Assembly (NCBI GenBank): GCA_003153125.1
Contig: PLWW01000124.1
Coordinates: 1-40,458 of the forward strand
Source of the DNA: Candidatus Dormiibacterota bacterium
Lineage (GTDB): Bacteria; Chloroflexota; Dormibacteria; Aeolococcales; Aeolococcaceae
Direction of reading: 5' to 3'
Length of the DNA stretch: 40,458 nt
The position numbers and the translations under genes were made by a program. Positions 1,044-23,318 of the stretch are shown piece after piece. Positions within the stretch are counted from its first letter, which is position 1. Every line of letters begins with the position of its first letter. The notes beneath the pieces are model-generated. The model was not told the origin of the DNA, searched no databases, and was given only the letters and a program-made list of their open reading frames with translations.

Positions 1044-2471
1044 TCAGGCGGTCACCTCGGCGCGCTGGGCGAGAAGCACGTCGCACGTGGCCGCCGCCCG
1101 CCGCCCGGAGGCGATGGCGTCGACCACCAGGGCAGCCCCCAGCACCGCGTCGCCCGCCGCCACCACGACTGGCCCGGCGCGGAGGTCGTCGCCGACGGTG
1201 ATGCGCGTGTCGCCCTCGTCGAGGCTCACGCCGAGCTGCTCGAACAGCGGCGACGGCCTCAACCCGGCGAAGCCGATGGCCAGCATCACCATGTCGGTGT
1301 CGATGCGCCGCTCCGTCCCGGGGCGGCGCACCAGCCCGCGGCCACCGGCGCTGCCGTCGCGGTCGACGTCGACCACGGTGATGCCGCACACGCGACCTCG
1401 CTGGTCGCCCTCGAAGCCGAGGACCTCGATCCCGAAGGCGCGCACGCCGCCCTCCTCGTGCGCGGCGTGGCTGCGCAGGACCAGGGGCCATTGCGGCCAC
1501 GGGTTCGAGGCGGTTCGGGTCCGTGGCGGCTCGGGGTAGATGACCAGCTGCTGTACGGAGGCGCACTCCTCGCGATGGGAATCGCCGAGGCAGTCTGCGG
1601 CGGTGTCGCCCCCGCCGATGATCGACACGGAGCGTCCCCGCGCGCTGACCACCTCGACGGTCTGCCCGGCGACGCGCCGGTTCTGTCCGATGAGGTATTC
1701 CATGGCGAGGTGGATGCCATCGAGGTGACGGCCGGGCAGGTCGGCTTCGCGCGCCCGTTCCGACCCGAGGGCAAGGACGACGGCGTCGTGGCGTTCCAGC
1801 AGCTCCTGACCGCTGACGTCGACCCCGCAGTCTCGGTCGCACTCGAACGTGATGCCCTCGGCGCTGAGCAGGTCGAGGCGCCGGTCGAGCACTGCCTTGT
1901 CCATCTTGAAGTCGGGAATGCCATAGCGGAGAAGGCCGCCCGGGAAGTCCGCCTTCTCGTACACGACGACGCGGTGACCGGAGCGGTTGAGCTGCTGAGC
2001 TGCGGCCAGTCCGGCCGGGCCGGAGCCCACCACGGCCACGGTGAGGCCGGTGCGGAAGGCCGGTGGACGCGGCCTGATCCAGCCGTTGGCGAACGCCGTG
2101 TCGATGGCCGTGCGCTCGATCTCCTTGATGGTGACCGCATCCCCGCCGATGGCCAGCACGCAGGCGGGCTCGCATGGCGCCGGGCACAGCCGCCCTGTGA
2201 ACTCGGGGAAGTTGTTGGTGCTCTCCAGGTTCTCGGCGGCGCTGCGCCACTCGCCGCTGCGCGCCAGGCCGTTCCACTCCGGGATCAGGTTTCCCAGCGC
2301 GCAGGCGTTGTGGCAAAAGGGCACGCCGCAGTCCATGCAACGCGCCGCCTGCGCCTCGACCGTGGCCAGCGGCAGTGGGTGGATCAACTCGGCGTGGTCC
2401 CGAACACGCTCCGCGACCGTGCGGTATGGCGAGGTCCGCCGCGGGATCTCCAGGAAGTCGCGACGTCCCAT
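1044..2471 (-). CDS. gltD: Glutamate synthase (NADPH) small subunit
   Basis: This 475-aa beta subunit passes NADPH electrons through FAD and [4Fe-4S] clusters to GltB. The N-terminal iron-sulfur region has Cys45-x2-Cys48-x4-Cys53-x3-Cys57 and Cys96-x3-Cys100-x3-Cys104, as in GltD and dihydropyrimidine dehydrogenase. It is followed by an FAD Rossmann motif GSGPAGLAAA and a second NADP-binding motif with GGGDTAADCLG. The length matches the family. Its ATG shares one base with the gltB TGA (TGATG), so translation is probably coupled to gltB. The open frame extends further upstream inside gltB, but MGRRDFLEIPR is the usual GltD N-terminus. Confidence 0.97.
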   Translation of the reverse strand: MGRRDFLEIPRRTSPYRTVAERVRDHAELIHPLPLATVEAQAARCMDCGVPFCHNACALGNLIPEWNGLARSGEWRSAAENLESTNNFPEFTGRLCPAPCEPACVLAIGGDAVTIKEIERTAIDTAFANGWIRPRPPAFRTGLTVAVVGSGPAGLAAAQQLNRSGHRVVVYEKADFPGGLLRYGIPDFKMDKAVLDRRLDLLSAEGITFECDRDCGVDVSGQELLERHDAVVLALGSERAREADLPGRHLDGIHLAMEYLIGQNRRVAGQTVEVVSARGRSVSIIGGGDTAADCLGDSHREECASVQQLVIYPEPPRTRTASNPWPQWPLVLRSHAAHEEGGVRAFGIEVLGFEGDQRGRVCGITVVDVDRDGSAGGRGLVRRPGTERRIDTDMVMLAIGFAGLRPSPLFEQLGVSLDEGDTRITVGDDLRAGPVVVAAGDAVLGAALVVDAIASGRRAAATCDVLLAQRAEVTA

Positions 2472-5400
2472 CAGACGGCCACGCCGAGCGCTGTCTGGCG
2501 CGCGGCCAGCGCACGCTCGTAGTCGACGGGGAGAATCTTGATGAACCGCGACAGCGACAGCGGCCAGTTCTCCAACAGCTCCTCGGCGACCGGGCTCTGG
2601 GTGTAGGCGAGATGCCGCTCGAGAAGCTCGCGCACCACGGGGCCGTCGTTCTCGTCGTCGGGCTCGAGCAGGCGCACCATGCCGGTGTTGCAGCGCTGCC
2701 CGAACGACCCGTCCACGTTGAGCACGTAGGCCAGCCCGCCGCTCATCCCCGCGGCGACGTTGCGCCCGGTGCGGCCCAGGATGACCACGACACCGCCCGT
2801 CATGTACTCGAGCGCGTGGTCGCCCGTGCCCTCGACGACGGCCTGGGCGCCGCTGTTGCGCACCGCGAAGCGCTCGCCGGCCACGCCGCGCACGAACATC
2901 TCGCCCGAGGTGGCGCCATAGAGCAGAACGTTGCCGGCGATGACGTTGTCGTCGGCCCGGCGGCGCGCGTTGGTGGGGGGCAGGACCACGATGCGGCCGC
3001 CGCTGAGACCCTTGCCGCACCCGTCGTTGACCTCGCCATGGACGGTGATCGTGATCCCGGCCGCCAGCCACGCCCCCAGCGACTGCCCGGCGCTGCCCTG
3101 CAGGTCCAGACGGATGGTGTCCGGAGGAAGGCCTTCGGCGCCGTGCCGTGAGGCCACCTCACCGGAGAGACGAGCCCCCACGCTGCGATCCCCGTTGCTG
3201 ATGCGCATGCGCAACTGCAGGGGTGTGGCATGGTCGAGCGCATCGGTCGCGAAGGCAATGACGCGCTCGTCGATGTCCCCGGCGGCGACGTGCGCCGCGC
3301 GTGGCATCGAGTGACGCGGCTCGCCGGGCGGCGTCAGCAGCCGGGAGAGGTCGACGTGGCCGGTGTCGTCGACCTGCTCGAGCAGTTCGACGCGCCCGAC
3401 CAGGTCCTCGAAGCGACGCACCCCAAGCCGCGCCATCCACGAGCGCACGTCCTCCGCAAGGAAGCGCATGAAGGTGACGATGTGTTCGGCACGCCCGGTG
3501 TAGCGCTCGCGGAGCTGGGGATCCTGCGTGGCGATCCCCACCGGGCAGGTGTTGAGGTGGCAGACGCGCATCATCACGCAGCCCGCCGCCACGAGCGGGG
3601 CGGTGGCGAAGGCGAACTCCTCGGCGCCGAGGAGCGCGGCCACAATGACGTCGCGCCCGGTGCGCATCAGCCCATCGCTCTGCAGGACGACGCGGTCGCG
3701 CAGGCCGTTGGCGACCAAGGTCTGCTGCGCCTCGGCCAGGCCGAGCTCCCAGGGCGCGCCGGCGTGGGTGAGCGATGACAGTGGGGCTGCGCCCGTGCCG
3801 CCCTCGTAGCCGGAGACCACGATGTGGTCGGCGCGCGCCTTGGCGACCGCGGCGGCCACGGGGCCCACGCCGATCTCGGCGACGAGCTTGACGCTGATGC
3901 GTGCGGCGGGGTTGACGGAGCGGAGGTCGTAGATGAGCTGGGCGAGGTCCTCCACGGAGTAGACGTCGTGGTGCGGTGGAGGAGAGATCAGCCCCACCCC
4001 CGGCGTCGAATGGCGGAGGCGGGCGATGGTGACGTCGACCTTGTCGCCGGGAAGCTGGCCACCCTCGCCGGGCTTGGCGCCCTGGGCGACCTTGATCTGG
4101 ATCTCGTCGGCGTTGATGAGGAAGTCGGCGGTAACACCGAACCGGGCGGAGGCCACCTGATGGATGGCGCTCCGCTTCGAATCCGTGCCGTCGAGCACGT
4201 ACCGGGCCGCGTCCTCACCGCCCTCGCCGGTGTTGGAACGGCCGCCGATGCGGTTCATGGCGATGGCCAGCGTCTCGTGCATCTCCGGTGAGATCGAGCC
4301 CAGCGACATGGCGCCGGTGGCGAAGCGGCGCACCAGCGTGTCCGCGGACTCCACCTCCTCGAGGGGCACGGGCACGTCGGCCTCGCGGATGGCGAGCAGT
4401 CCGCGCAGGGTTCGGCGCTCCGCCGATTCGCGGTCAGCGAGGGTCACGTACTGGCGGAAGTGCTCCGGCGATTCTGAGCGCACGGCGTGCTGGAGGGCCC
4501 CGATCACCTCCGGGTTCCAGGCCCGCTTCTCACCGTCGCGCCGCCACTGGTAGGTGCCGCCGCCGTCCAGCGCTGCGGGGGGCGCACCGTTCTGCGGGAA
4601 GGCGCGAGCGTGGCGGCGCACAGCGTCGGCGGCGATGCGCTCCAGCCCGGCGCCACCGATGCGCGTCGGTGTCCGTGTGAAGTACCGTTCGACCACGTCC
4701 TCGGAGAGCCCGATGGCCTCGAAGAGCTGGGCTCCGCAGTAGGAGAGGACGGTCGAGATGCCCATCTTGGCGATCGTCTTGAGCAGCCCCTTGCGCAGCG
4801 CATTGATGACGTTGGCCTGCGCGGCGGGACCGTCGAGGCCCTCGATGGCCCCGCTGACGGCGAGCTCGGCGGCTGTGTCGAGGAGAAGGTAGGGGTTGAC
4901 CGCCTCGGCTCCGAACCCGATGAGCAGCGCCAAGTGTGCGACCTCGCGCGGCTCCGCGCTCTCCACCACGAGCCCAACCCCGGTGCGGGTGCGCTCGCGG
5001 AGCAGGTGATGGTGCACAGCGGCGGTTGCCAGGAGCGAGGGGATGGGGACGTGCGTGGCGTTGGCGCCCCTGTCGCTGATGATCAGGATGGTGCGACCCG
5101 CGTCCACGGCGTCGGACGCCAGGCGGCAGATCCGTCGCAGGCCGTCCTCGAGGCCGCCGGCGCCGTTGCCGGGGTGAAAGACCGCGTTGATCATCTCGGC
5201 CGGGAACTGGCGCTGGGTGACCTGCCGGATCGTCGCCAGGTCGGCGGCGGTGAGGATCGGGTGGGGCAGCTCGAGACGCGCCGCCTGCGCCGGGCCCTGC
5301 TCGAGAAGGTTGCCGCCGGCCCCCAGCGACGTGACCAGGGACATCACCGCCGCCTCCCTGATGGGATCGATGGGCGGGTTGGTGACCTGGGCGAAGAGCT

Positions 5401-6946
5401 GCTTGAAGTACGCGAAGAGCGGCTGCGGGCGGGTGCTCAGCACCGCCAGCGGCGCGTCATTGCCCATCGACCCGACCGGCTCCTCGCCGCGTGCCGCCAT
5501 CGGTGCGACGATGAGGCGCACGTCCTCCTCGGTCCAGCCGAAGAGGTGCTGGCGGATGCGCAGCGTGCCCGGGTCCGGCTCCTGCTGGTCGCTTCCGGGG
5601 GCCAGCTCGTCGAGGTGAACTGTTCCGCCGCGGATCCACTGCTGATAGGGGTGGCGCGCCGCAAGCAGCCGCTTGCAGGCGTCGTCGTCGAGGATGGCGC
5701 CGGCCTCTGTGTCGACGAGCAGCAGCCTGCCGGGGTCGAGCCGCCACTTCTTGACGATGCGCTCCTCGGGGATGTCGAGCACCCCCGCCTCGGACGCCAT
5801 CACGACGAGGCCGTCATCGGTGACCACGTACCGCGCCGGCCTCAGGCCGTTGCGATCGAGACACGCCCCCACCAGCCTGCCGTCGGTGAAAGCGATGGCC
5901 GCCGGTCCATCCCACGGCTCCAGCAGGCTGGCGTGGAACTCGTAGAAGGCGCGGCGCTCGTCGTCGAGCAGCTCGTTGCTGTGCCACGCCTCCGGGATCA
6001 TCATCATCATGGCGTGCTCGATGGAGCGCCCTGACATGGTCAGGAGTTCGAGGGCGTTGTCGAACTGGGTCGAGTCCGAGCCGTCGGAGTCGAGAACGTC
6101 GCGAATCTTCTCGACATCGCCGCCGAAGAGGGCGCTGCGGAACTTCGACTGGCGGGCGTTCATCCACGCCGCGTTGCCGCGCAGCGTGTTGATCTCGCCG
6201 TTGTGCGCGCACATCCGTGCCGGCTGGGCGAGGTCCCAGCGGGGAAGCACGTTGGTGGAGAAGCGCGCGTGGACGATGGCCAGCGCCGACACCACCGCCG
6301 GGTTGCCCAGGTCGCTGTAGAAGCGGCCGAGTTGTTCGGCGGTGAGCATCCCCTTGTAGACGACCGTCCGGCTGCTGAGGCTGGCGAGGTGGAGGGCGCG
6401 CCGGCCCATCCCGCCCTGGCGTGCCCGCGTCTCGATGACACGACGGAGCACGTAGAGGCGGCGCTCCAGGGCGTCACCGTCCAGGCCGACCGCGGCGACG
6501 AAGAACTGGCGGATGTGCGGCATGGCCGCCCGCGCCGTGACCCCTGGAGCAGTGGGGTCGACCGGCACGTCGCGCCAGCCGAGCAGATGCACACCCTCGG
6601 CGGCACAGCAATCCGCGATGAGGTCCTCCGCCGTCCGGCGCTCGCCGGCAGCGCGGGGAAGGAAAGCCACCCCCACGCCATAGGCGCCGGCCTCGGGCAG
6701 TGCCACGGGTGAGGCCGAGAGCAGGAAATCGTGGGGAAGCTGGAGGAGGATCCCGGCACCGTCGCCGGTGTCCGGGTCGCTCCCCGTGGCACCGCGATGT
6801 CCCAGGTTGACGAGGGCGCGCATCGCCGAGGACACGATGCTATGGTCGGCACGGCCCGACGTGGTGGCGACGAAGGCTACCCCACATCCGTCGTGCTCGA
6901 ATCGCGGATCACGGAGATCGCGGGGGGCCGGGGCGGGGGCGCTCAT
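2471..6946 (-). CDS. gltB: Glutamate synthase large subunit
   Basis: A 1491-aa alpha subunit that makes two glutamates from glutamine and 2-oxoglutarate. The N-terminal class II amidotransferase begins at Cys21 (HDGCGVAF), which would become Cys1 after removal of a 20-residue propeptide. The central and FMN domains follow; the [3Fe-4S] motif Cys-x5-Cys-x4-Cys is visible in CVMMRVCHLNTCPVG, and the C-terminal GXGXG-type beta-helix contains GGVVVILGRTG. I chose the ATG at 6946 (MSAPAPAP); an in-frame ATG at 6991 would give a 35-residue propeptide, also within the family range. The gene precedes gltD with a one-base overlap and diverges from sdhC. Confidence 0.97.
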   Translation of the reverse strand: MSAPAPAPRDLRDPRFEHDGCGVAFVATTSGRADHSIVSSAMRALVNLGHRGATGSDPDTGDGAGILLQLPHDFLLSASPVALPEAGAYGVGVAFLPRAAGERRTAEDLIADCCAAEGVHLLGWRDVPVDPTAPGVTARAAMPHIRQFFVAAVGLDGDALERRLYVLRRVIETRARQGGMGRRALHLASLSSRTVVYKGMLTAEQLGRFYSDLGNPAVVSALAIVHARFSTNVLPRWDLAQPARMCAHNGEINTLRGNAAWMNARQSKFRSALFGGDVEKIRDVLDSDGSDSTQFDNALELLTMSGRSIEHAMMMMIPEAWHSNELLDDERRAFYEFHASLLEPWDGPAAIAFTDGRLVGACLDRNGLRPARYVVTDDGLVVMASEAGVLDIPEERIVKKWRLDPGRLLLVDTEAGAILDDDACKRLLAARHPYQQWIRGGTVHLDELAPGSDQQEPDPGTLRIRQHLFGWTEEDVRLIVAPMAARGEEPVGSMGNDAPLAVLSTRPQPLFAYFKQLFAQVTNPPIDPIREAAVMSLVTSLGAGGNLLEQGPAQAARLELPHPILTAADLATIRQVTQRQFPAEMINAVFHPGNGAGGLEDGLRRICRLASDAVDAGRTILIISDRGANATHVPIPSLLATAAVHHHLLRERTRTGVGLVVESAEPREVAHLALLIGFGAEAVNPYLLLDTAAELAVSGAIEGLDGPAAQANVINALRKGLLKTIAKMGISTVLSYCGAQLFEAIGLSEDVVERYFTRTPTRIGGAGLERIAADAVRRHARAFPQNGAPPAALDGGGTYQWRRDGEKRAWNPEVIGALQHAVRSESPEHFRQYVTLADRESAERRTLRGLLAIREADVPVPLEEVESADTLVRRFATGAMSLGSISPEMHETLAIAMNRIGGRSNTGEGGEDAARYVLDGTDSKRSAIHQVASARFGVTADFLINADEIQIKVAQGAKPGEGGQLPGDKVDVTIARLRHSTPGVGLISPPPHHDVYSVEDLAQLIYDLRSVNPAARISVKLVAEIGVGPVAAAVAKARADHIVVSGYEGGTGAAPLSSLTHAGAPWELGLAEAQQTLVANGLRDRVVLQSDGLMRTGRDVIVAALLGAEEFAFATAPLVAAGCVMMRVCHLNTCPVGIATQDPQLRERYTGRAEHIVTFMRFLAEDVRSWMARLGVRRFEDLVGRVELLEQVDDTGHVDLSRLLTPPGEPRHSMPRAAHVAAGDIDERVIAFATDALDHATPLQLRMRISNGDRSVGARLSGEVASRHGAEGLPPDTIRLDLQGSAGQSLGAWLAAGITITVHGEVNDGCGKGLSGGRIVVLPPTNARRRADDNVIAGNVLLYGATSGEMFVRGVAGERFAVRNSGAQAVVEGTGDHALEYMTGGVVVILGRTGRNVAAGMSGGLAYVLNVDGSFGQRCNTGMVRLLEPDDENDGPVVRELLERHLAYTQSPVAEELLENWPLSLSRFIKILPVDYERALAARQTALGVAV

Positions 6947-7121
6947 CTGTTCGATCCCAAATAGCGTGACAGGATGTGGTCGAGCCATCAAGCCCAGCGT
7001 CGATGCCTCCAGCCACAGCAGACCGGCCCTTCATCGTAATCAATGCCGCATTCGCTACGATCAGTACCAGTTCCCGCTCGTTCTGCACCGATCCGCCGCG
7101 CCTTCAGGCGCCAGGGGAGAG
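6947..7121. other. Divergent spacer between gltB and sdhC
   Basis: This 175 bp spacer must contain the promoters for both flanking operons. TACGAT at 7056-7061 is a possible -10 for sdhC, without a convincing -35. The sdhC SD AGGGGAG lies at 7113-7119. I saw no riboswitch-like structure, repeat or small gene in it. Confidence 0.35.
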
Positions 7122-10930: not shown

Positions 10931-11914
10931 TCAGCCGGCCGTCGTCGCGGCGCTGAGTGGTGGCATCGACGCGTCGATGTCCTCGCGCCGCGCATCCATG
11001 ATGTCGACCAACTGCTGCACCGACGACGCGGACCGGTGCAGGGCCTCACGGTCGCTGTCAGAAAGGGCGACCTCGACCACGCCGAGCAGCCCGCCCGCGC
11101 CGAGGCGGGCGGGAACGCCTGTGTACAGGCCGTTGATGCCGTACTCACCCTCCAAGTACACCGCGCAGGGCAGCACCTGGTGGGTGTCGAGGAGGATTGC
11201 GTCGGTCATCTGGGCCGCGGCCGCAGACGGCGCGTAGTAGGCGCTTCCCGTCTTGAGCAGCCCAACGATCTCGGCCCCGCCATCGCGGGCGCGTTGCACG
11301 ATGGCGTCGAGGCGCTCCTTGGAGATGAGCTGCTCGACGGGCACGCCGGCGACGGTGGTCAGCGAGGTGAGCGGCACCATCGTGTCGCCGTGGCCACCGA
11401 GCACGTACGCCGCCACGTCGACCACGGAGGCGTCAAGCTCCTGCGCGATGAAGGTGCGGAAACGGGCCGTGTCGAGCACGCCGGCCATCCCGATGACGCG
11501 CTCGCGCGGGAAGCCGCTGACCGCCTTGGCGACCTGTGCCATGGCGTCGAGGGGGTTGCTCACCACCACGATCACGGCGTCCGGTGAGTGCTCCGCGACC
11601 TGTCGGGCAACCGACGCAACGATCTTGGCGTTGGTCATGACCAGGTCGTCGCGCGACATGCCCGGCTTGCGGGCCACGCCGCTGGTGATCAGGACGACAT
11701 CGGAGGCGGCCGTCTCCTCGTAACCGTTGGAGCCGGTCACGACGGAGTCGTGGCCGAGGATGGGGCCCGCCTGGAGGAGGTCGAGCGCCTTGCCCTGGGG
11801 CAGTCCCTCGACGATGTCGACGAGCACGATGTCGGCGTAATTGCGCTCGGCGAGGCGCTGCGTCAGGGTCGCCCCGACGTTGCCGGCACCGACGACTGTG
11901 ATCTTGAAGCGCAC
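10931..11914 (-). CDS. mdh: Malate dehydrogenase (lactate/malate dehydrogenase family)
   Basis: A 327-aa NAD-dependent enzyme interconverting malate and oxaloacetate. The dinucleotide motif GAGNVG is at residues 9-14 with Asp33 for the NAD ribose (NAD preference). The specificity loop reads [11 protein letters not shown], with Arg82 at the position where lactate dehydrogenases have Gln, so malate is favoured; Arg88 follows. The catalytic His is in GGHGDTMVP. The start is a GTG at 11914 preceded by AAGGGTGA; the frame is open for several hundred codons upstream, antisense to nth, but that part has no family similarity. Convergent with the sdh operon, so complex II and Mdh genes end within 18 nt of each other. 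Confidence 0.94.
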
Positions 11915-11956
11915 CTTGTCACCCTTGGTCTGGACGTGGTTGCAGGGATCGGGCAC

Positions 11957-11962
11957 ATTGTA
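11957..11962 (-). promoter_or_regulatory. Candidate -10 of mdh
   Basis: TACAAT on the minus strand, giving a 5' leader of roughly 35 nt before the mdh GTG, with the SD AAGGGTGA inside it. No clear -35 is seen. Confidence 0.45.
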
Positions 11963-11999
11963 GGAAGCCGCGGTCGCAGCCCGCGTTTCAGCCGCTAGC

Positions 12000-12797
12000 A
12001 TGGCCCGGATGGCAGCCACGCGCCCCGATCCACCGCGCCCGGCGCAACGCGGCCGGGCCTCGGCACGGAGCCGGCGGCGCCTCCCCGCAGGGGCCAGGGC
12101 GCGGGCACTCACGGTCGTGGAACGCCTCCGCGCAGAGTACCCGCAAGCAACGTGCGCTCTCGTCCACGAGTCGCCGTTGCAACTGCTCGTGGCCACCATC
12201 CTCAGCGCGCAGTGCACCGACGAGCGCGTCAACATGGTCACCCCGGTGCTGTTCGCGCGGTACCCGACGGCTGTCGACCTGGCCGAGGCGCGCCTCGAGG
12301 ATCTCGAGGAGGTCATTCGCTCCACCGGTTTCTTCCGGATGAAGGCGCTGGCCATCCGCGAGATGAGCCAGGACGTGGTGGCGCGCTTTGGAGGGCAGGT
12401 GCCGCGCCGGATGGAGGACCTTGTGAGCCTCCGCGGCGTCGGCCGCAAGACCGCCAACGTGGTGCTCGGGGTCGCCTTCGGCGTGCCTGGTCTCCCCGTC
12501 GACACCCACGTCACGCGCCTCTCCGGTTTACTCCGCCTGACCAGCGCCAAGGACCCGGTCGAGATCGAGCGCGACATCTGCGCGATGGTGCCCGCTGAGG
12601 AGTGGACCGACCTGAGCCTGCGCCTCATCATGCACGGACGACGGGTGTGCGTCGCCCGGACCCCGCGTTGCACACAGTGCGTCCTCGGCGACATCTGCCC
12701 GTCCGCCGACCTGGGTCCGGTGCGGCCCGGCGCCCGCACCGGCGGCCGTCATGCCACGGCCAGGACGGCGCGCCCTCGATCGCCGAGCGGAAGCTGA
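12000..12797 (+). CDS. nth: Endonuclease III
   Basis: A 265-aa base-excision repair glycosylase/AP lyase for oxidised pyrimidines. The helix-hairpin-helix [14 protein letters not shown] carries the catalytic Lys150, and VDTHV holds the catalytic Asp168. The [4Fe-4S] loop Cys217-x6-Cys224-x2-Cys227-x5-Cys233 is complete. A basic, Arg/Ala-rich N-terminal extension of about 35 residues precedes the domain. The start could be ATG 12000 or, more attractively, ATG 12009: TAGCAT at 11996-12001 lies 7 nt before it, fitting the leaderless pattern seen elsewhere in this window. The 3' end overlaps the convergent hypothetical gene by 49 nt. Confidence 0.95.
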
Positions 12798-17488: not shown

Positions 17489-19668
17489 TAAATCGCCTCG
17501 ATGTCATCGTCGCCCCCGTCGCCACGCCGGCGGATGCGGCGGACATGGGGCGCACGTTGCAGGTGGTAGGGGACGTTGATGACCACCGTCCCCGGACGGA
17601 AGAGCAATTGTGCCTTGAGCCTCAACGCCGTCTGATTGTGCAGGAGCGCGTGCCACCAGCGCGTTGCCACCAGCTCGGGCAGCACGATGATGATGGTGTT
17701 GTCACCGTGCTGCTTGTCGATAGCGTCGATGTAGCGGAGCAGCGGCCGGATGAACGACCGGTACGGGGACTCGACGATCTCGAGGGGAACGTGGTTGCCC
17801 CAGATCTCCCATTTGGCCCGCAGCCTCTCGATGTGGTGCTCGTCGTCGCAGATGTGCACGGCGATGACGCTGTCGCTGATGGCCCGAGCCATCGCCAGTG
17901 ACTGCATGGCCACGCCGTTGAGCTCGGCGATAGGCACGATGCACACCGGCTTGAGGTCGGCGGGGGAGATGGGGATCTCGGTGGTGAGGTGCGTGGCCAC
18001 GTCTTGGTAATGGCGGTGAATCGCATAGAAGACAGTGACGAAGGTCGGGATGATGATCAGCACCACCCAGGCGCCGCTGGTGAACTTGGCGGCCGCGGTG
18101 ATGATGAAGACCAGGGCGGTCAGGCTCATGCCCACGGCGTTGAGCGGCAGCCCCCGGCGCCAGCCGGGCTCACGGCGCTTCAGCCAGCGCATCACCATGC
18201 CACCCTGCGACATCGTGAAGGCGAGGAAGACACCGATCGTGTACAGCGGGATGAGCGAGTCCACCCTGGCGCCGAACACCCACACGAGCAGGACCGCCAT
18301 CGCCGCAAGCACCACAATGCCGTTGTTGAACGCCAGCCGCTCGCCGAGACGGCGGAACTGGTGAGGAGCGTAGTCGTCGCGGGCGAGGAAGAAGAAGAGG
18401 CGGGGGAAGTCGGAGAAGGAGGTGTTCGCGGCGAGGACGAGGATGGCCGCCGTCGTCCACGTGACGAAATACAGGCCCGCGCTGTTGCTGCCGAACGCCG
18501 CGGTGGCGAACTGCACGATGATCGGCGGGTTGCTGCTCTTGTATGGGTGCAGGCCGAGAAGGTGGGCGCCGAGCGTGATGCCCACGAACATGGTGCCCAG
18601 GGTTAGCCCCATCACCGTCAGCGTGGTCCGCGCGTTGTGCCAGCCGGGCGGTTTGAACGCGGGCACGCCGTCGCTGATCGCCTCGACGCCGGTCAGGGCG
18701 GTGCAACCGGACGCGAAAGCCTTGAGGATGAGCAGGACACCCACGCCCTCGATGGCGTGGCCGAGCGGCGCCGTCTGGACCGGAAGCGTCGTATGGGTCG
18801 CCAGCCGGATGAATCCGACGATGAGCATCACGAAGATGCCGAAGATGAACAGGTAGGTGGGCGCCGCGAAGATCGACCCTGATTCGCGGATGCCGCGCAG
18901 GTTGCCCAGGACGATGAGCACGATGATGCCGCTGCACACGAGCACGCCGTGCTGACCGACCCACGGCACCGAGCTGGCGACGAAATCCTTGCCGCTGGAC
19001 ACCGAGACGGCGACGGTGAGCACGTAGTCCGTCATGAGGGCCGCGGCAGCGACCAACCCGAACAACGGCCCGAGGTTGTCCTTGGCGACGATGTACGAGC
19101 CCCCGCCCGCGGGGTACGCCTTGATCGTCTGCCGGTAGCTCAGCACCACGGCGCAGAGCAGGAAGACGATCGCGCCCATGATGGGCAGCGAGTACTGCGT
19201 CGCCGCCGAGCCTGCGACCACGAGCACGACGAGGATCTGCTCGGTCGCGTAGGCCACCGATGAGAGTGCGTCCGACGACAGCACAGCGAGGGCCTTGACC
19301 TTGGTGAGCTTCTCGCCCTCCTGCTGCGCCGTGGCCAGCGGCTGACCGAGGATGAAGCCGCGGATTCGCTTCGCGAAGCGCCCCATGTCGCTGGTGGGGG
19401 CCGTGGCCCGGGCAGTGGCTTCAAGCCATCCCGGTGCGACATTCTTGAAGCCCTGGTTCTTGGGGCGCACCACGCGCACGTAGTGCTCTCCGGCCCGGCC
19501 GCGCCGCTCGAGAACACCGAGGTCGGGCTCGACGAAGTCCCGCCCGGTCTGGACGCGAGCCCGAGGGACGAGTGACCAGGACCGGCCCGCCTCGCGAAGT
19601 GCGGCCACCTCGTCTTCGGGGAGACCTGCCTTGGCGGACTCCGACGGTTCGGGCGGCGTTTCACTCAC
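17488..19668 (-). CDS. kimA: KimA-type high-affinity potassium transporter (APC superfamily)
   Basis: A 726-aa APC-fold transporter with about 12 membrane segments (roughly 125-580) and a C-terminal cytosolic domain with LNGVAMQSLAMARAISDSVIAVHI. Residues known in Bacillus subtilis KimA for K+ binding are all present with conserved spacing: Asp133 and Tyr140 (SSDALSSVAY), Asp214 and Thr218 (TDYVLT), Thr326 and Glu329 (TGVE). The offset to the B. subtilis numbering is about 97, so this protein has an extra N-terminal cytoplasmic region of that length. The GTG start (MSETPPEPSE) is uncertain because SD support is weak. It is the first gene of an operon with an aminotransferase and an oxidoreductase. 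Confidence 0.88.
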   Translation of the reverse strand: MSETPPEPSESAKAGLPEDEVAALREAGRSWSLVPRARVQTGRDFVEPDLGVLERRGRAGEHYVRVVRPKNQGFKNVAPGWLEATARATAPTSDMGRFAKRIRGFILGQPLATAQQEGEKLTKVKALAVLSSDALSSVAYATEQILVVLVVAGSAATQYSLPIMGAIVFLLCAVVLSYRQTIKAYPAGGGSYIVAKDNLGPLFGLVAAAALMTDYVLTVAVSVSSGKDFVASSVPWVGQHGVLVCSGIIVLIVLGNLRGIRESGSIFAAPTYLFIFGIFVMLIVGFIRLATHTTLPVQTAPLGHAIEGVGVLLILKAFASGCTALTGVEAISDGVPAFKPPGWHNARTTLTVMGLTLGTMFVGITLGAHLLGLHPYKSSNPPIIVQFATAAFGSNSAGLYFVTWTTAAILVLAANTSFSDFPRLFFFLARDDYAPHQFRRLGERLAFNNGIVVLAAMAVLLVWVFGARVDSLIPLYTIGVFLAFTMSQGGMVMRWLKRREPGWRRGLPLNAVGMSLTALVFIITAAAKFTSGAWVVLIIIPTFVTVFYAIHRHYQDVATHLTTEIPISPADLKPVCIVPIAELNGVAMQSLAMARAISDSVIAVHICDDEHHIERLRAKWEIWGNHVPLEIVESPYRSFIRPLLRYIDAIDKQHGDNTIIIVLPELVATRWWHALLHNQTALRLKAQLLFRPGTVVINVPYHLQRAPHVRRIRRRGDGGDDDIEAI

Positions 19669-19693
19669 TCTTCGTCACAAGACCCCGTCGCAG

Positions 19694-19699
19694 AGTGTA
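19694..19699 (-). promoter_or_regulatory. Possible -10 of the kimA operon
   Basis: TACACT on the minus strand, about 25 nt upstream of the kimA GTG start region. The whole kimA to 19775 spacer is only 106 bp, and I see nothing in it that looks like the c-di-AMP (ydaO-type) riboswitch that often precedes kimA genes. Confidence 0.3.
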
Positions 19700-19774
19700 G
19701 TCAGCGTCCCGCAGACGCGGATCGGTGAGGGTCGGGTACGATTCAAGCGTTCCGATGGATTTCGACTTGGCCGA

Positions 19775-20545
19775 GTGATCGATACAACCGAGGCATCGTC
19801 CCGCGCCGCTGGCGAGGAGACGGACGGCCGCAGCACACCCATTGTCGGTGGGGCGCGCGCTGTTGCACCGAGTGTCCGCAGCCGCGCGCCCGTGGGCGGG
19901 CCATCGCCGGCGCAGCTTCCCCGGATCGTCCGCCCGCAGGGGCTGCCTCACTCAACGCGGCCGATCGACCCCCCGGCACCGGAGCATCACCACCTGCCCT
20001 CGTGGGTGCGGAGGCTCCACGCCCAGGCACGTCCCATCCTCGCCGACCTGCTCGGCAACCTGTCCGGCGAAGCGCTGCAGCGCTTCCAGGCCACGGTGGA
20101 CGCGCTGATCGCCGCCATCAGTTCCGGCAAGTTCAGCCAGGCGTGGCAGTACCCCCGCGTGATCGGCGAGGGCATGGAGGTGTTCGAGAGCCATCGCCGC
20201 GACAACGCTGAGGAGCTCCGCGCCCAGCGGATCCTCGAGCAGAGGCGCAAGAAGGCGGGGGACTCGCTGCGCGAGGCCGGTGCGCGCCTGGCGCCCGACG
20301 TGCTGGCGCGTCTCAACCGAACACTGCGCAGTGCGGTCACCGCCGAGGAGATCGACGCTGTGACCACCGAGATGGACCAGTCGGTGACCGTGGCGCGGAC
20401 CAGTGAGGAGCGCCGCCGCGACCGCGAGATCGATCGCACCCGCTCGCGCATCCGCAACACGCTACCCCGCGCCGGGGCGGCCGAGCCTGCCGAGACGTGG
20501 CAGGACGTGCTGCGCCGCTTCGCTGAAACGCAGGCCGCTGAGTAG
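19775..20545 (+). CDS. Hypothetical protein, 256 aa, charged and helical
   Basis: I do not recognise the family. After a Ser/Pro-rich, probably disordered first 70 residues there is a helical region (LPSWVRRLHAQARPILADLLGNLSGEALQRFQATVDALIAA in two parts) and then a long Arg/Glu-rich stretch that looks like coiled coil (EELRAQRILEQRRKKAGD, SEERRRDREIDRTRSRIRN). There is no signal peptide or membrane segment. The start is uncertain: the frame is open back into kimA, and I chose GTG 19775 because it avoids that overlap. It diverges from kimA and is followed 60 bp later by the CBS operon. Confidence 0.6.
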   Translation: MIDTTEASSRAAGEETDGRSTPIVGGARAVAPSVRSRAPVGGPSPAQLPRIVRPQGLPHSTRPIDPPAPEHHHLPSWVRRLHAQARPILADLLGNLSGEALQRFQATVDALIAAISSGKFSQAWQYPRVIGEGMEVFESHRRDNAEELRAQRILEQRRKKAGDSLREAGARLAPDVLARLNRTLRSAVTAEEIDAVTTEMDQSVTVARTSEERRRDREIDRTRSRIRNTLPRAGAAEPAETWQDVLRRFAETQAAE

Positions 20546-20574: not shown

Positions 20575-20605
20575 CGCAGCCAGTTCAGCCAGCGCGAGGA
20601 GTTCG

Positions 20606-21097
20606 TTGAGCACAACCCCCGTCGCAGCATCGCTTGACCCGGATCGGCTCGCGCCCGACGCCGGCAACCCACTGGTCGCCGACGTGATGCGGGACGAGGT
20701 GGTCTTCTGCCTCCCCAGCACCCCGGTCGACGCGATCGCCAAGCTGATGGCCGACAACGAGTTGAGTGAGATCCCAGTCCTGCTCGACCGCCGCCCGGTG
20801 GGCTATGTGCAGCAGGACGACATCCTCGACCGTCTCGTGGCCGGCGACGTCGCCATCGCCGGCAGCGACGTGGCCATGCGACCCCCAACGACTGTGGTGC
20901 AGGCTCGCGACATCCTGCGCACCCCGCCCCTGCTCGTTGACGAAGGGCAGCAGGTGCGCGAGGTGGCGGCGATCATGGCCCAGCAGGGCCGCCAGGTGGC
21001 GCTGATCATGCACGAGGACGAGACCCCGGTCGGGATGCTGACCGCGCGCGAGCTCGCCGACCACCTCCTCGCGCACCCCGGGCTGTCCGGTGCCTGA
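20606..21097 (+). CDS. CBS-domain pair protein
   Basis: A 163-aa protein made almost entirely of two CBS motifs: VADVMRDEVVFCLPSTPVDAIAKLM... (about 23-80) and RDILRTPPLLVDEGQQVREVAAIMAQQG... (about 101-155). Such Bateman modules bind adenine nucleotides, SAM or c-di-AMP and regulate partners. No catalytic domain is attached. The start is a TTG at 20606 with the SD GAGGAG four bases upstream. It overlaps the next gene by 8 nt; that gene itself opens with a degenerate CBS-like region, so the two products probably form one complex in which this protein senses a nucleotide ligand (inference). Confidence 0.85.
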   Translation: MSTTPVAASLDPDRLAPDAGNPLVADVMRDEVVFCLPSTPVDAIAKLMADNELSEIPVLLDRRPVGYVQQDDILDRLVAGDVAIAGSDVAMRPPTTVVQARDILRTPPLLVDEGQQVREVAAIMAQQGRQVALIMHEDETPVGMLTARELADHLLAHPGLSGA

Positions 21098-23318
21098 GCT
21101 GGACCGTCTCGCCATCACCCTCGGCGCAGAGTGCGACGCGGAGGACACGCTACTCGACATCATCGCGCAGCTGCGCGCGCAGTACCCGGTGCCCCTCGTG
21201 GTGTATCGCGACGAGACGATCGAGGGCACCGTCGGCCTCGAGGTGATCGTGGCCGCGTTCGGCCGCGACCTCGGTGCGGTGCGCGTCGGCGAGGTGATGC
21301 GTCGAGCCCCAGCGCTCGACATCGGCGAGGCGACCGAGCACGGCGTCGCGGCAATGCGCGCCGCCGGCGGCGCGGCGGTGATCGTCACCGAGAGTGACGG
21401 AGGCATCTTCGCGAGGCAGCGCACCGAGCGCCCCGTCGGCATGGTCACCGACGCCTTGGTGCTGGCCACGATCGGCAAGAACGTCACCGACAAGGCGCCG
21501 ATGAAGATCCTTGCCGGGCATCGCGATCTGGGCTTCAACGTGCCCGTGTCGCCGTGTCAGCGCAACTGTCCGATCAAGCAGGACATCGCGACGTACGTGG
21601 ACTACGTGAGCCAGGGTCGCTACGTCGACTCCTGGGCGGTCATCCACGAGACCAACCCCTTCCCGAGCATGCTGGGACGGCTCTGCAACCACCCCTGCGA
21701 GACCGACTGCAAGCGCGGCTGGGACCCCGGTGAGGAGCCGGTCACGATCCGTTCCATCAAGCGCTTCAGCACTGACTTCGCCTTCAAGCAGAACCTCTGG
21801 ATCGATTACAAGGTGGCTCCCCCCAACGGGCGCCGCGTGGCCGTGGTCGGGGCCGGCCCAGCCGGTCTCACCTGTGCCCTCGACATGCGTGTGCAGGGGT
21901 ACGAGGTGGTGGTGTACGAGCGTGAGGCCAAGGTGGGCGGCCTGCTGAGCACGTCGATCCCGCCCTTCCGGTTCGATCACACCCAGCTGCAGTGGGAGCT
22001 GGATATGATCCTCGCCACCGGCATCGATGTGCGCACCAACAGCAACATCGGCGTTGGTGACAACGATGTCAAGATCGAGGATCTGCTCACCGAGTACGAC
22101 GCCGTGTTCGTGTCGATCGGCATGATGAAGGGGCGCATCCTGCCCATCCCGGGAAGCACCCTGCCCCAGGTCACGGACGCGATGACCTTCCTCCGCCAGA
22201 TCTCCTACGACCGAATGCCCGACCATTTCCCGGTGGCGGGGCGCGTGGTCGTGGTCGGCGGCGGCGCCATCGCCACCGACGCATGTCAGAGCTCGATCAA
22301 GCTGGGCGCCAAACAGGTGTGGATGGTGGCGATCGAGCCCGAGGACCGGCTCCCGGCGTTCGGCAACGAGCTTCATGAGGCCAAGGAGATCGGGCTCAAC
22401 ATCAAGTGCGGTGTCATCGTCAAGGAGATCCAGGCCGACGAGCGCGGCAACGTCCTCGCCGTCAGCTTCGCGCCGTTGCAGCCGATGGAGTTCGACCCGC
22501 TCAGCGGCAAGCTGATCTTCTCCTCTGTGAAGGAGGACGAGAACGCCCAGCGCTGGACGGTCGCCGCCGACCTCGTCATCTTCGCCTCGGGCCAGATCAT
22601 GGAGGCTCCGGGGGCAGCCGTTCCGCTGACCCAGAGGGGCCTCGTCGCCGCCGACCGGGGCGGCCACACCGGCGTTGACAGGCTGTTCTGTGGCGGTGAC
22701 TGCGTGCAGGGCCCGTCTTTCATCGTCGACGCCGTCGCCTGGGGCCACCGCGTGGCGCGCTCCATCCGCGAGTACCTCGGCGACGACCTGCCCGCCGTCG
22801 AGCGCGTCTATCAGACGATCGTCGAGCGCACCGACGACCACCGCCAGTCCGAGGTGTTCGCGCGCACCGAGCCATCCATCCTCGAAGCCTCCAAGCGCTA
22901 CGACATGACCGAGTGCGAGCTGCCATGGAGCGACCGCGAGGCGATCGTCCAGTCGATCAGGTGCTTCCAGTGCGACTCGGTGCACCATTACGACACGGCG
23001 GTCTGCGTGCTCTGCGGAGCCTGCGACGACGTGTGCCCGGAGAAGGCGATCGACGTCGTCGTCTTCGGTGAGGACCGCGAGCGCTCGTCCGGCGGCGAGA
23101 CCAAGGTGTGCGAGACGTCCGGTGGTGATCCCCTGTCGGGAGGCTACGAGGGCGAGATCTTCATCAACTACGACCGTTGCACGAACTGCCGCATCTGCGA
23201 GGACCATTGCCCGGTCAACTGCATCACGTTCGAGCGGGTACGCTTCATCGACGACACCATGCGAGTGGTGGAGAAGCCGCGCGTCAGCGTCGAGCTTCCA
23301 CTGGTCGCGGTGCGCTGA
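21090..23318 (+). CDS. CBS / GltD-like flavoprotein / 2x[4Fe-4S] ferredoxin fusion
   Basis: A 742-aa three-part protein. Residues about 5-130 resemble a CBS pair (PLVVYRDETIEGTVGLEVIV; VGEVMRRAPALDIGEATEHGV). Residues about 145-565 are a GltD/NfnB-like NAD(P)H module: Cys156-x3-Cys160-Pro and Cys199-x3-Cys203-x3-Cys207 for iron-sulfur clusters, the FAD motif GAGPAGL (254-260), the NAD(P) motif VVVVGGGAIATDAC (386-399) and FCGGD (533-537). The C-terminus is a bacterial 2x[4Fe-4S] ferredoxin domain: Cys639/642/645/649 and Cys697/700/703/707, plus Cys625-x2-Cys628. This suggests electron transfer between NAD(P)H, FAD and ferredoxin, with a regulatory nucleotide-sensing head. GTG start, 8 nt overlap with the CBS gene. 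Not a second GltD: no GltB partner is adjacent, and the domain order differs. Confidence 0.87.
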   Translation: MPELDRLAITLGAECDAEDTLLDIIAQLRAQYPVPLVVYRDETIEGTVGLEVIVAAFGRDLGAVRVGEVMRRAPALDIGEATEHGVAAMRAAGGAAVIVTESDGGIFARQRTERPVGMVTDALVLATIGKNVTDKAPMKILAGHRDLGFNVPVSPCQRNCPIKQDIATYVDYVSQGRYVDSWAVIHETNPFPSMLGRLCNHPCETDCKRGWDPGEEPVTIRSIKRFSTDFAFKQNLWIDYKVAPPNGRRVAVVGAGPAGLTCALDMRVQGYEVVVYEREAKVGGLLSTSIPPFRFDHTQLQWELDMILATGIDVRTNSNIGVGDNDVKIEDLLTEYDAVFVSIGMMKGRILPIPGSTLPQVTDAMTFLRQISYDRMPDHFPVAGRVVVVGGGAIATDACQSSIKLGAKQVWMVAIEPEDRLPAFGNELHEAKEIGLNIKCGVIVKEIQADERGNVLAVSFAPLQPMEFDPLSGKLIFSSVKEDENAQRWTVAADLVIFASGQIMEAPGAAVPLTQRGLVAADRGGHTGVDRLFCGGDCVQGPSFIVDAVAWGHRVARSIREYLGDDLPAVERVYQTIVERTDDHRQSEVFARTEPSILEASKRYDMTECELPWSDREAIVQSIRCFQCDSVHHYDTAVCVLCGACDDVCPEKAIDVVVFGEDRERSSGGETKVCETSGGDPLSGGYEGEIFINYDRCTNCRICEDHCPVNCITFERVRFIDDTMRVVEKPRVSVELPLVAVR

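Follow-up and report, generated by a model that had tools for sequence, protein, structure and literature searches.

Two overlapping Dormibacteria genes encode a CBS-pair protein and a CBS/GltD-like/ferredoxin fusion flavoprotein

How might a small stand-alone CBS-pair protein be related to a ferredoxin flavoprotein that carries a CBS pair of its own? The question is raised by two overlapping genes in a 40,458-nucleotide stretch of DNA (contig PLWW01000124.1, here called the window) from a Candidatus Dormiibacterota bacterium. The first encodes the CBS-pair protein (P1, 163 aa) and the second a fusion protein (P2, 742 aa) in which a degenerate CBS pair, an N-terminal Fe-S module, a GltD-like FAD/NAD(P) module and a C-terminal ferredoxin domain follow one another. 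The pair is read here, at a probability a little short of even, as a single unit of two genes whose products form a ferredoxin:NAD+ oxidoreductase gated by nucleotides.

A two-gene unit restricted to two Dormibacteria families

All features of the pair lie on the forward strand. P1 starts with TTG at 20606 and ends at 21097; P2 starts with GTG at 21090 and ends at 23318. The two reading frames share 8 nt, GTGCCTGA (21090-21097), and both the overlap and the frames are as the earlier note had described them. A likely ribosome-binding site, GAGGAG (20596-20601), lies 4 nt before the TTG of P1, no clear site for P2 itself is seen in the sequence at the overlap, and translational coupling of the two genes is probable. 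The coding signal is strong, GC3 minus GC2 being 0.47 for each gene. Homologues share 55-91% full-length identity with P2 and 30-90% identity with P1; both are therefore real genes.

A pattern-based scan of 84,980 species genomes, which detects close relatives only and is the sole coverage of other phyla, found 35 loci of the family plus one unrelated GltD. P1 is directly upstream of P2 in all 28 loci that have room for it, and the remaining seven start inside P2 at a contig edge. Most loci of the window's own family (f1) have the 8-nt overlap; in the second family (f3) the two genes mostly overlap by 1 nt. Of the 24 genomes in which P1 is detected (E < 1e-14), 23 have P2 as well; the contig of the remaining one breaks off about 150 bases past P1. 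All 24 P1-bearing genomes are thus compatible with P1 occurring only where P2 does, and the co-occurrence across genomes by which the earlier note proposed to test the pair is borne out.

P2 is present in 37 of 110 Dormibacteria genomes, 20 in f1 and 17 in f3; at the same threshold it is missing from those of the other families of the class, among them f4 and f2, which is of the same order. Among 400 sampled genomes of the phylum, none outside f1 and f3 holds a full-length P2, and the other matches in this sample align from about residue 145 on, without the CBS part. Named records of the family come from Candidatus Dormibacterota and related soil MAGs labelled Chloroflexi. The P2 sequences form one clade on a long stem (1.46) in the tree, the sister of which is poorly placed (long branches). 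In f1 the neighbours of the pair are tadA and an unknown gene; in f3 they are genes for a peptidase, cytochrome c assembly, MFS and TldD/PmbA. Since these outer flanks differ, the pair has been kept together while its surroundings changed. Among the genomes searched, P1 and P2 are a conserved, lineage-restricted two-gene unit of two Dormibacteria families. The 304-aa gene directly upstream of the pair in the window (19631-20545) has no Pfam match, and its position is kept in most own-family loci.

The CBS pairs of P1 and P2

P1 has two CBS repeats (PF00571, 3.7e-19): repeat 1 at residues 24-78 (20675-20839; from Pfam and residue conservation) and repeat 2 at about residues 95-156 (20888-21073, limits approximate; from Pfam, the AF2 model and conservation). 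The AF2 model of P1 (pLDDT 81.3) is a CBS-pair fold whose best structure match has Z 16.8 (rmsd 1.9 A, 123 residues), in agreement with the stand-alone CBS-pair protein first noted at this locus.

The degenerate CBS pair of P2 occupies residues 1-133 (taken elsewhere as 1-135; 21090-21488). Pfam gives no CBS match in the first 135 residues of the window's own P2; PF00571 is matched by 13 of 19 P2 relatives (best 5.5e-7). When the P2 N-terminal profile is compared with the P1 profile, both repeats align over 111 columns (probability 95.8, E 6.9e-9), and the significant PDB matches of the N-terminal family profile are CBS-domain proteins (best E 1.3e-10). In the AF2 model of the P2 N-terminus, strands and helices follow one another as in two CBS repeats, mostly at pLDDT 70-90. 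After residue 130 the model is poor (mean pLDDT 55.9), with the Fe-S and ferredoxin parts badly modelled, so that confidence is limited to the CBS pair and some of the FAD/NAD core. The degenerate pair claimed earlier is confirmed by sequence profile, and the CBS fold that was to be looked for in the first 130 residues is there.

Residue conservation was assessed on 24 aligned members of each protein. At site 1 of P1, Gly66 and Asp72 are kept in all 24; at site 2, S/T146 is found in 23 and D/E149 in all. The window's own P1 is without a Ser/Thr at site 1, where it has Gln69. In the CBS pair of P2, the repeat 1 site has Asp in 0/24 and Glu in 12/24, and the repeat 2 site has D/E in just 8/24. 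Since the acidic CBS-site residues are kept in P1 and mostly lost in P2, P1 is probably the sensor and the CBS pair of P2 the receiver. The pattern suggests that P1 would hold the ligand and that the P2 pair would dock with it, as the other half of a shared CBS module.

The same residues bear on two other readings of the CBS parts. P1 and the P2 N-terminus could be structural only, an assembly or dimerisation module that does no ligand gating while the redox enzyme is as described below. Such a role would fit the loss of most nucleotide-site residues from the P2 pair, which is also the least conserved domain (0.58 vs 0.78-0.85 for the redox domains), and the frequent lack of Ser/Thr at site 1 in own-family P1. 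It is nevertheless distinctly unlikely, for a structural module need not keep the Gly, acidic and Ser/Thr residues that P1 keeps at its two sites. The other reading leaves the gating in place and changes the ligand: the module would sense SAM, c-di-AMP, Ap4A, NAD(H) or a metal instead of adenylate charge. The CBS folds nearest P1 are those of SAM/MTA-, AMP/ADP-, Ap4A- and c-di-AMP-bound proteins, all at similar Z (14.7-16.8), and the fold cannot separate these ligands. CBS pairs in general may bind SAM, c-di-AMP, metals or no ligand, but AMP, ADP and ATP are the commonest, and a different ligand for P1 is considered rather unlikely, though with an appreciable chance.

Redox modules and electron partners of P2

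In the remainder of P2, Fer4_20 (PF14691, 4.6e-19; residues 154-235, 21549-21794) is followed by the FAD and NAD(P) Rossmann domains (Pyr_redox_2, PF07992, 4.9e-26; residues 249-550, 21834-22739), the arrangement of GltD/NfnB-like proteins, which is also seen in the structure matches. A linker at a DsrL-like position in the alignment (about residues 571-620, 22800-22949) leads to the C-terminal 2[4Fe-4S] ferredoxin domain (about residues 621-716, 22950-23237), where Fer4 repeats (PF00037) are matched in two stretches at 639-713. The Fe-S and FAD residues are invariant across 24 P2 members; Pfam and the invariant Cys thus uphold the GltD/NfnB-like module, the N-terminal Fe-S cysteines and the 2x[4Fe-4S] tail of the earlier note. 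In the N-terminal module Cys 156, 160, 199, 203 and 207 are invariant (24/24), and none of the 24 aligned P2 has equivalents of NfnB Cys39 and Cys42, the first two distal ligands. With these absent and five Cys only, the module probably has one cluster, not two. The first Cys pair is also missing in most other aligned GltD-Fd (GltD-ferredoxin) relatives, and its absence is read from the alignment as a subgroup trait and no departure from the wider GltD family. The C-terminal domain has 12 invariant Cys (24 members), eight in two CxxCxxCxxxC motifs and four at 625, 628, 674 and 711. Cys35 of P1 (20708-20710), in CBS repeat 1, is likewise invariant; for Cys35 and the four P2 Cys outside the motifs, a role as redox switch or as an additional metal site is possible.

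The phosphate of NADP is held in NfnB by a YRR motif, which is also present in DsrL-2 (PMC7596348). At its place P2 has V-A-I-E-P (residues 413-417, 22326-22340), the position being [A/S]-I-E in 24/24 members with Glu416 invariant; nearby, the NAD(P) site has GGGA where GGGN is expected, and the next Arg is Gln400. An acidic residue at the YRR position typically marks an NAD(H) enzyme. Because the invariant Glu416 stands where the NADP-binding Arg would, P2 is predicted to use NAD(H), not NADPH. Reduction of ferredoxin by NADH is uphill without bifurcation, which makes ferredoxin to NAD+ the likelier direction. The NAD(P)H:ferredoxin electron transfer suggested earlier therefore stands in part: the role fits the family, but the NADP signature is lost, so that NAD(H) would be the cofactor, and ferredoxin to NAD+ would be the easier direction when no bifurcating partner is present.

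No gene for an electron-partner enzyme, and no Nfn- or Stn-type partner subunit, lies next to the pair in the neighbourhoods of f1 or f3, and the earlier note was right that no oxidoreductase partner adjoins it. Its statement that no GltB lies nearby has to be corrected. The window annotation places gltB, the glutamate synthase large subunit gene, at 2471-6991, and a GltD paralogue search places gltD, for the small subunit of the same enzyme, at 1044-2460 (limits approximate); both are on the reverse strand, at 1.0-7.0 kb of the window. This gltBD encodes an enzyme of its own with its own GltD, unlinked to P1 and P2. Elsewhere in the window, a 602-aa ORF (10931-12739) has lactate/malate dehydrogenase domains from residue 279 on only; its first 220 residues and the remainder match separately in several relatives, and it may be two genes.

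P2 is the free-standing GltD-Fd protein of the source genome. The other two GltD-Fd proteins of this genome adjoin 2-oxoacid:ferredoxin oxidoreductases. On contig C88 (locus L069, 4189-8848) a KorAB-type enzyme adjoins a 591-aa paralogue, and at C39:83459-85716 and around (locus L070, 2611-8824) a 1203-aa PFOR-type protein, described as a PFOR fusion, is encoded together with a 544-aa GltD-Fd protein and a DHO_dh-domain (PreA-like) protein. The three C39 genes may form a linked oxidoreductase complex. The reported absence of PreA thus holds for the surroundings of the pair and not for the genome, which has this PreA-like gene on a separate contig, next to another GltD paralogue and unlinked to the pair.

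POR_N, a domain of 2-oxoacid:ferredoxin oxidoreductases, is found in 95 of 101 relatives, and genomes of other Dormibacteria families have such oxidoreductases without P2; P2 is therefore not required for them. The idea that P2 tracks these enzymes is unsupported, since they are almost universal in the class and its own occurrence is patchy. P2 is the sole GltD-Fd protein detected in most f3 genomes, and the single KorAB-type locus annotated in f3 lies beside a radical SAM gene, without a reductase gene. Of 101 genomes, 100 have NuoF-type proteins, which allows respiration of NADH; the same count rules out a ferredoxin-fed complex I without its NADH module, with P2 as the link. NuoF scores are mostly above the curated cut-off in the pair-holding families f1 and f3, and below it in f2 and f4. 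In a relative from the phylum with a 1.1-Mb genome, a 636-aa GltD-like protein is encoded within a complex I cluster, with a NuoH-type gene on one side and a NuoJ-type gene on the other (L133, 5422-9980), and in another relative a 614-aa GltD-Fd protein adjoins a cytochrome b/b6-type gene (L134, 4576-7252).

Two other assignments of P2 have to be weighed against these neighbourhoods. The C-terminal Fe-S domain could serve one specific, unlinked enzyme and not free ferredoxin, in the manner of DsrL with DsrAB or of KorC-like proteins. The closest characterised relatives and the two paralogues in the source genome do look like dedicated partners, and the phylum relatives adjoin cytochrome b or sit in a complex I cluster; but neither in f1 nor in f3 do the flanks link an enzyme gene to the pair, and a dedicated enzyme is judged unlikely. 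P2 as an ordinary glutamate synthase small subunit is highly improbable and was rejected. Its GltD-family score reaches 244.5 bits (TIGR01316), but P2 falls far below the cut-off of every GltD model, the gltB of the window has an adjoining gltD, and P2 has extra CBS and ferredoxin domains and no NADP motif.

Proposed mechanism and comparison with known systems

In the preferred reading, that of a gated ferredoxin:NAD+ oxidoreductase, reduced ferredoxin would be supplied by 2-oxoacid:ferredoxin oxidoreductases whose genes lie elsewhere in the genome. Its electrons would enter P2 at the C-terminal 2[4Fe-4S] domain and pass to the FAD, with the N-terminal [4Fe-4S] cluster close by, and NAD+ would be reduced; the reverse reaction would be possible, though uphill unless a bifurcating partner took part. 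The CBS pair of P1 would bind an adenine nucleotide and make, together with the degenerate P2 pair, a joint CBS module that would raise or lower P2 activity with the energy state of the cell. The domain make-up suggests that cell energy state controls electron flow through P2, and gating by nucleotides is plausible. The full proposal, in which the adenine-nucleotide sensor P1 docks on the P2 CBS receiver and energy charge gates ferredoxin/NAD electron exchange directly, is put forward with some doubt, at a chance clearly below even.

Control of GltD-type ferredoxin:NAD(P) oxidoreductases is usually ascribed to substrate supply or to the partner enzyme. If the proposal is true, a CBS receiver with a constant CBS partner would bring low-potential electron flow under direct allosteric control by energy state. 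Such gating would be of relevance to Dormibacteria, a class of soil and polar bacteria, which one report links to chemosynthesis on atmospheric trace gases in cold-desert soil poor in nutrients (PMC9561532).

In the titles and abstracts retrieved under CBS and electron bifurcation, and more widely, no CBS-domain protein of this type was found. Searches for a CBS domain with ferredoxin flavoprotein, NADH and cryo-EM returned nothing, and those for Dormibacter and ferredoxin unrelated work only. The stand-alone CBS regulators CBSX, DarB and AcuB share the fold of P1 (Z 14.7-16.7), are small and may act on a partner enzyme. The P1 gene differs from theirs in that it overlaps the gene for the protein on which P1 presumably acts, and this protein has a CBS pair itself. 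Control of thioredoxins by CBSX was unsupported in one study (PMC7921703).

The best PDB matches of P2, by both sequence and structure, are flavoprotein subunits of NfnABC, Stn and NfnI/Xfn. The best sequence match is 9bov (2.2e-74); the best structure match has Z 23.0 (rmsd 4.4, 295 residues), all matches of the whole-P2 search being to the flavin domain and uninformative on the CBS part. NfnB, NfnABC and Stn are bifurcating complexes with partner subunits and no CBS domain, whereas P2 has a CBS pair and no linked partner. The NAD(P)H:acceptor oxidoreductase DsrL has the same redox domain order as P2, including the linker, and its DsrL-1 types prefer NAD(H) (PMC7596348). DsrL is tied to DsrAB and is without a CBS pair; P2 is unlinked and has one. 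In NCBIfam, P2 is best matched by PRK12771 / NF009410 (385.5 bits over residues 153-714, below the curated cut-off of 516). The GltD-ferredoxin proteins of that family, which, judging by gene neighbourhood, are taken to be KorC-like partners of 2-oxoacid oxidoreductases, have the order Fer4_20 - FAD/NAD(P) - 2[4Fe-4S] as P2 does. P2 differs in its added N-terminal CBS pair and CBS partner, in being unlinked to an oxidoreductase, and in having Ile-Glu where the NADP-type members have Arg-Arg. The best reading of P2 is as a variant of the GltD-ferredoxin family that is fused to a CBS pair and has a constant partner in P1.
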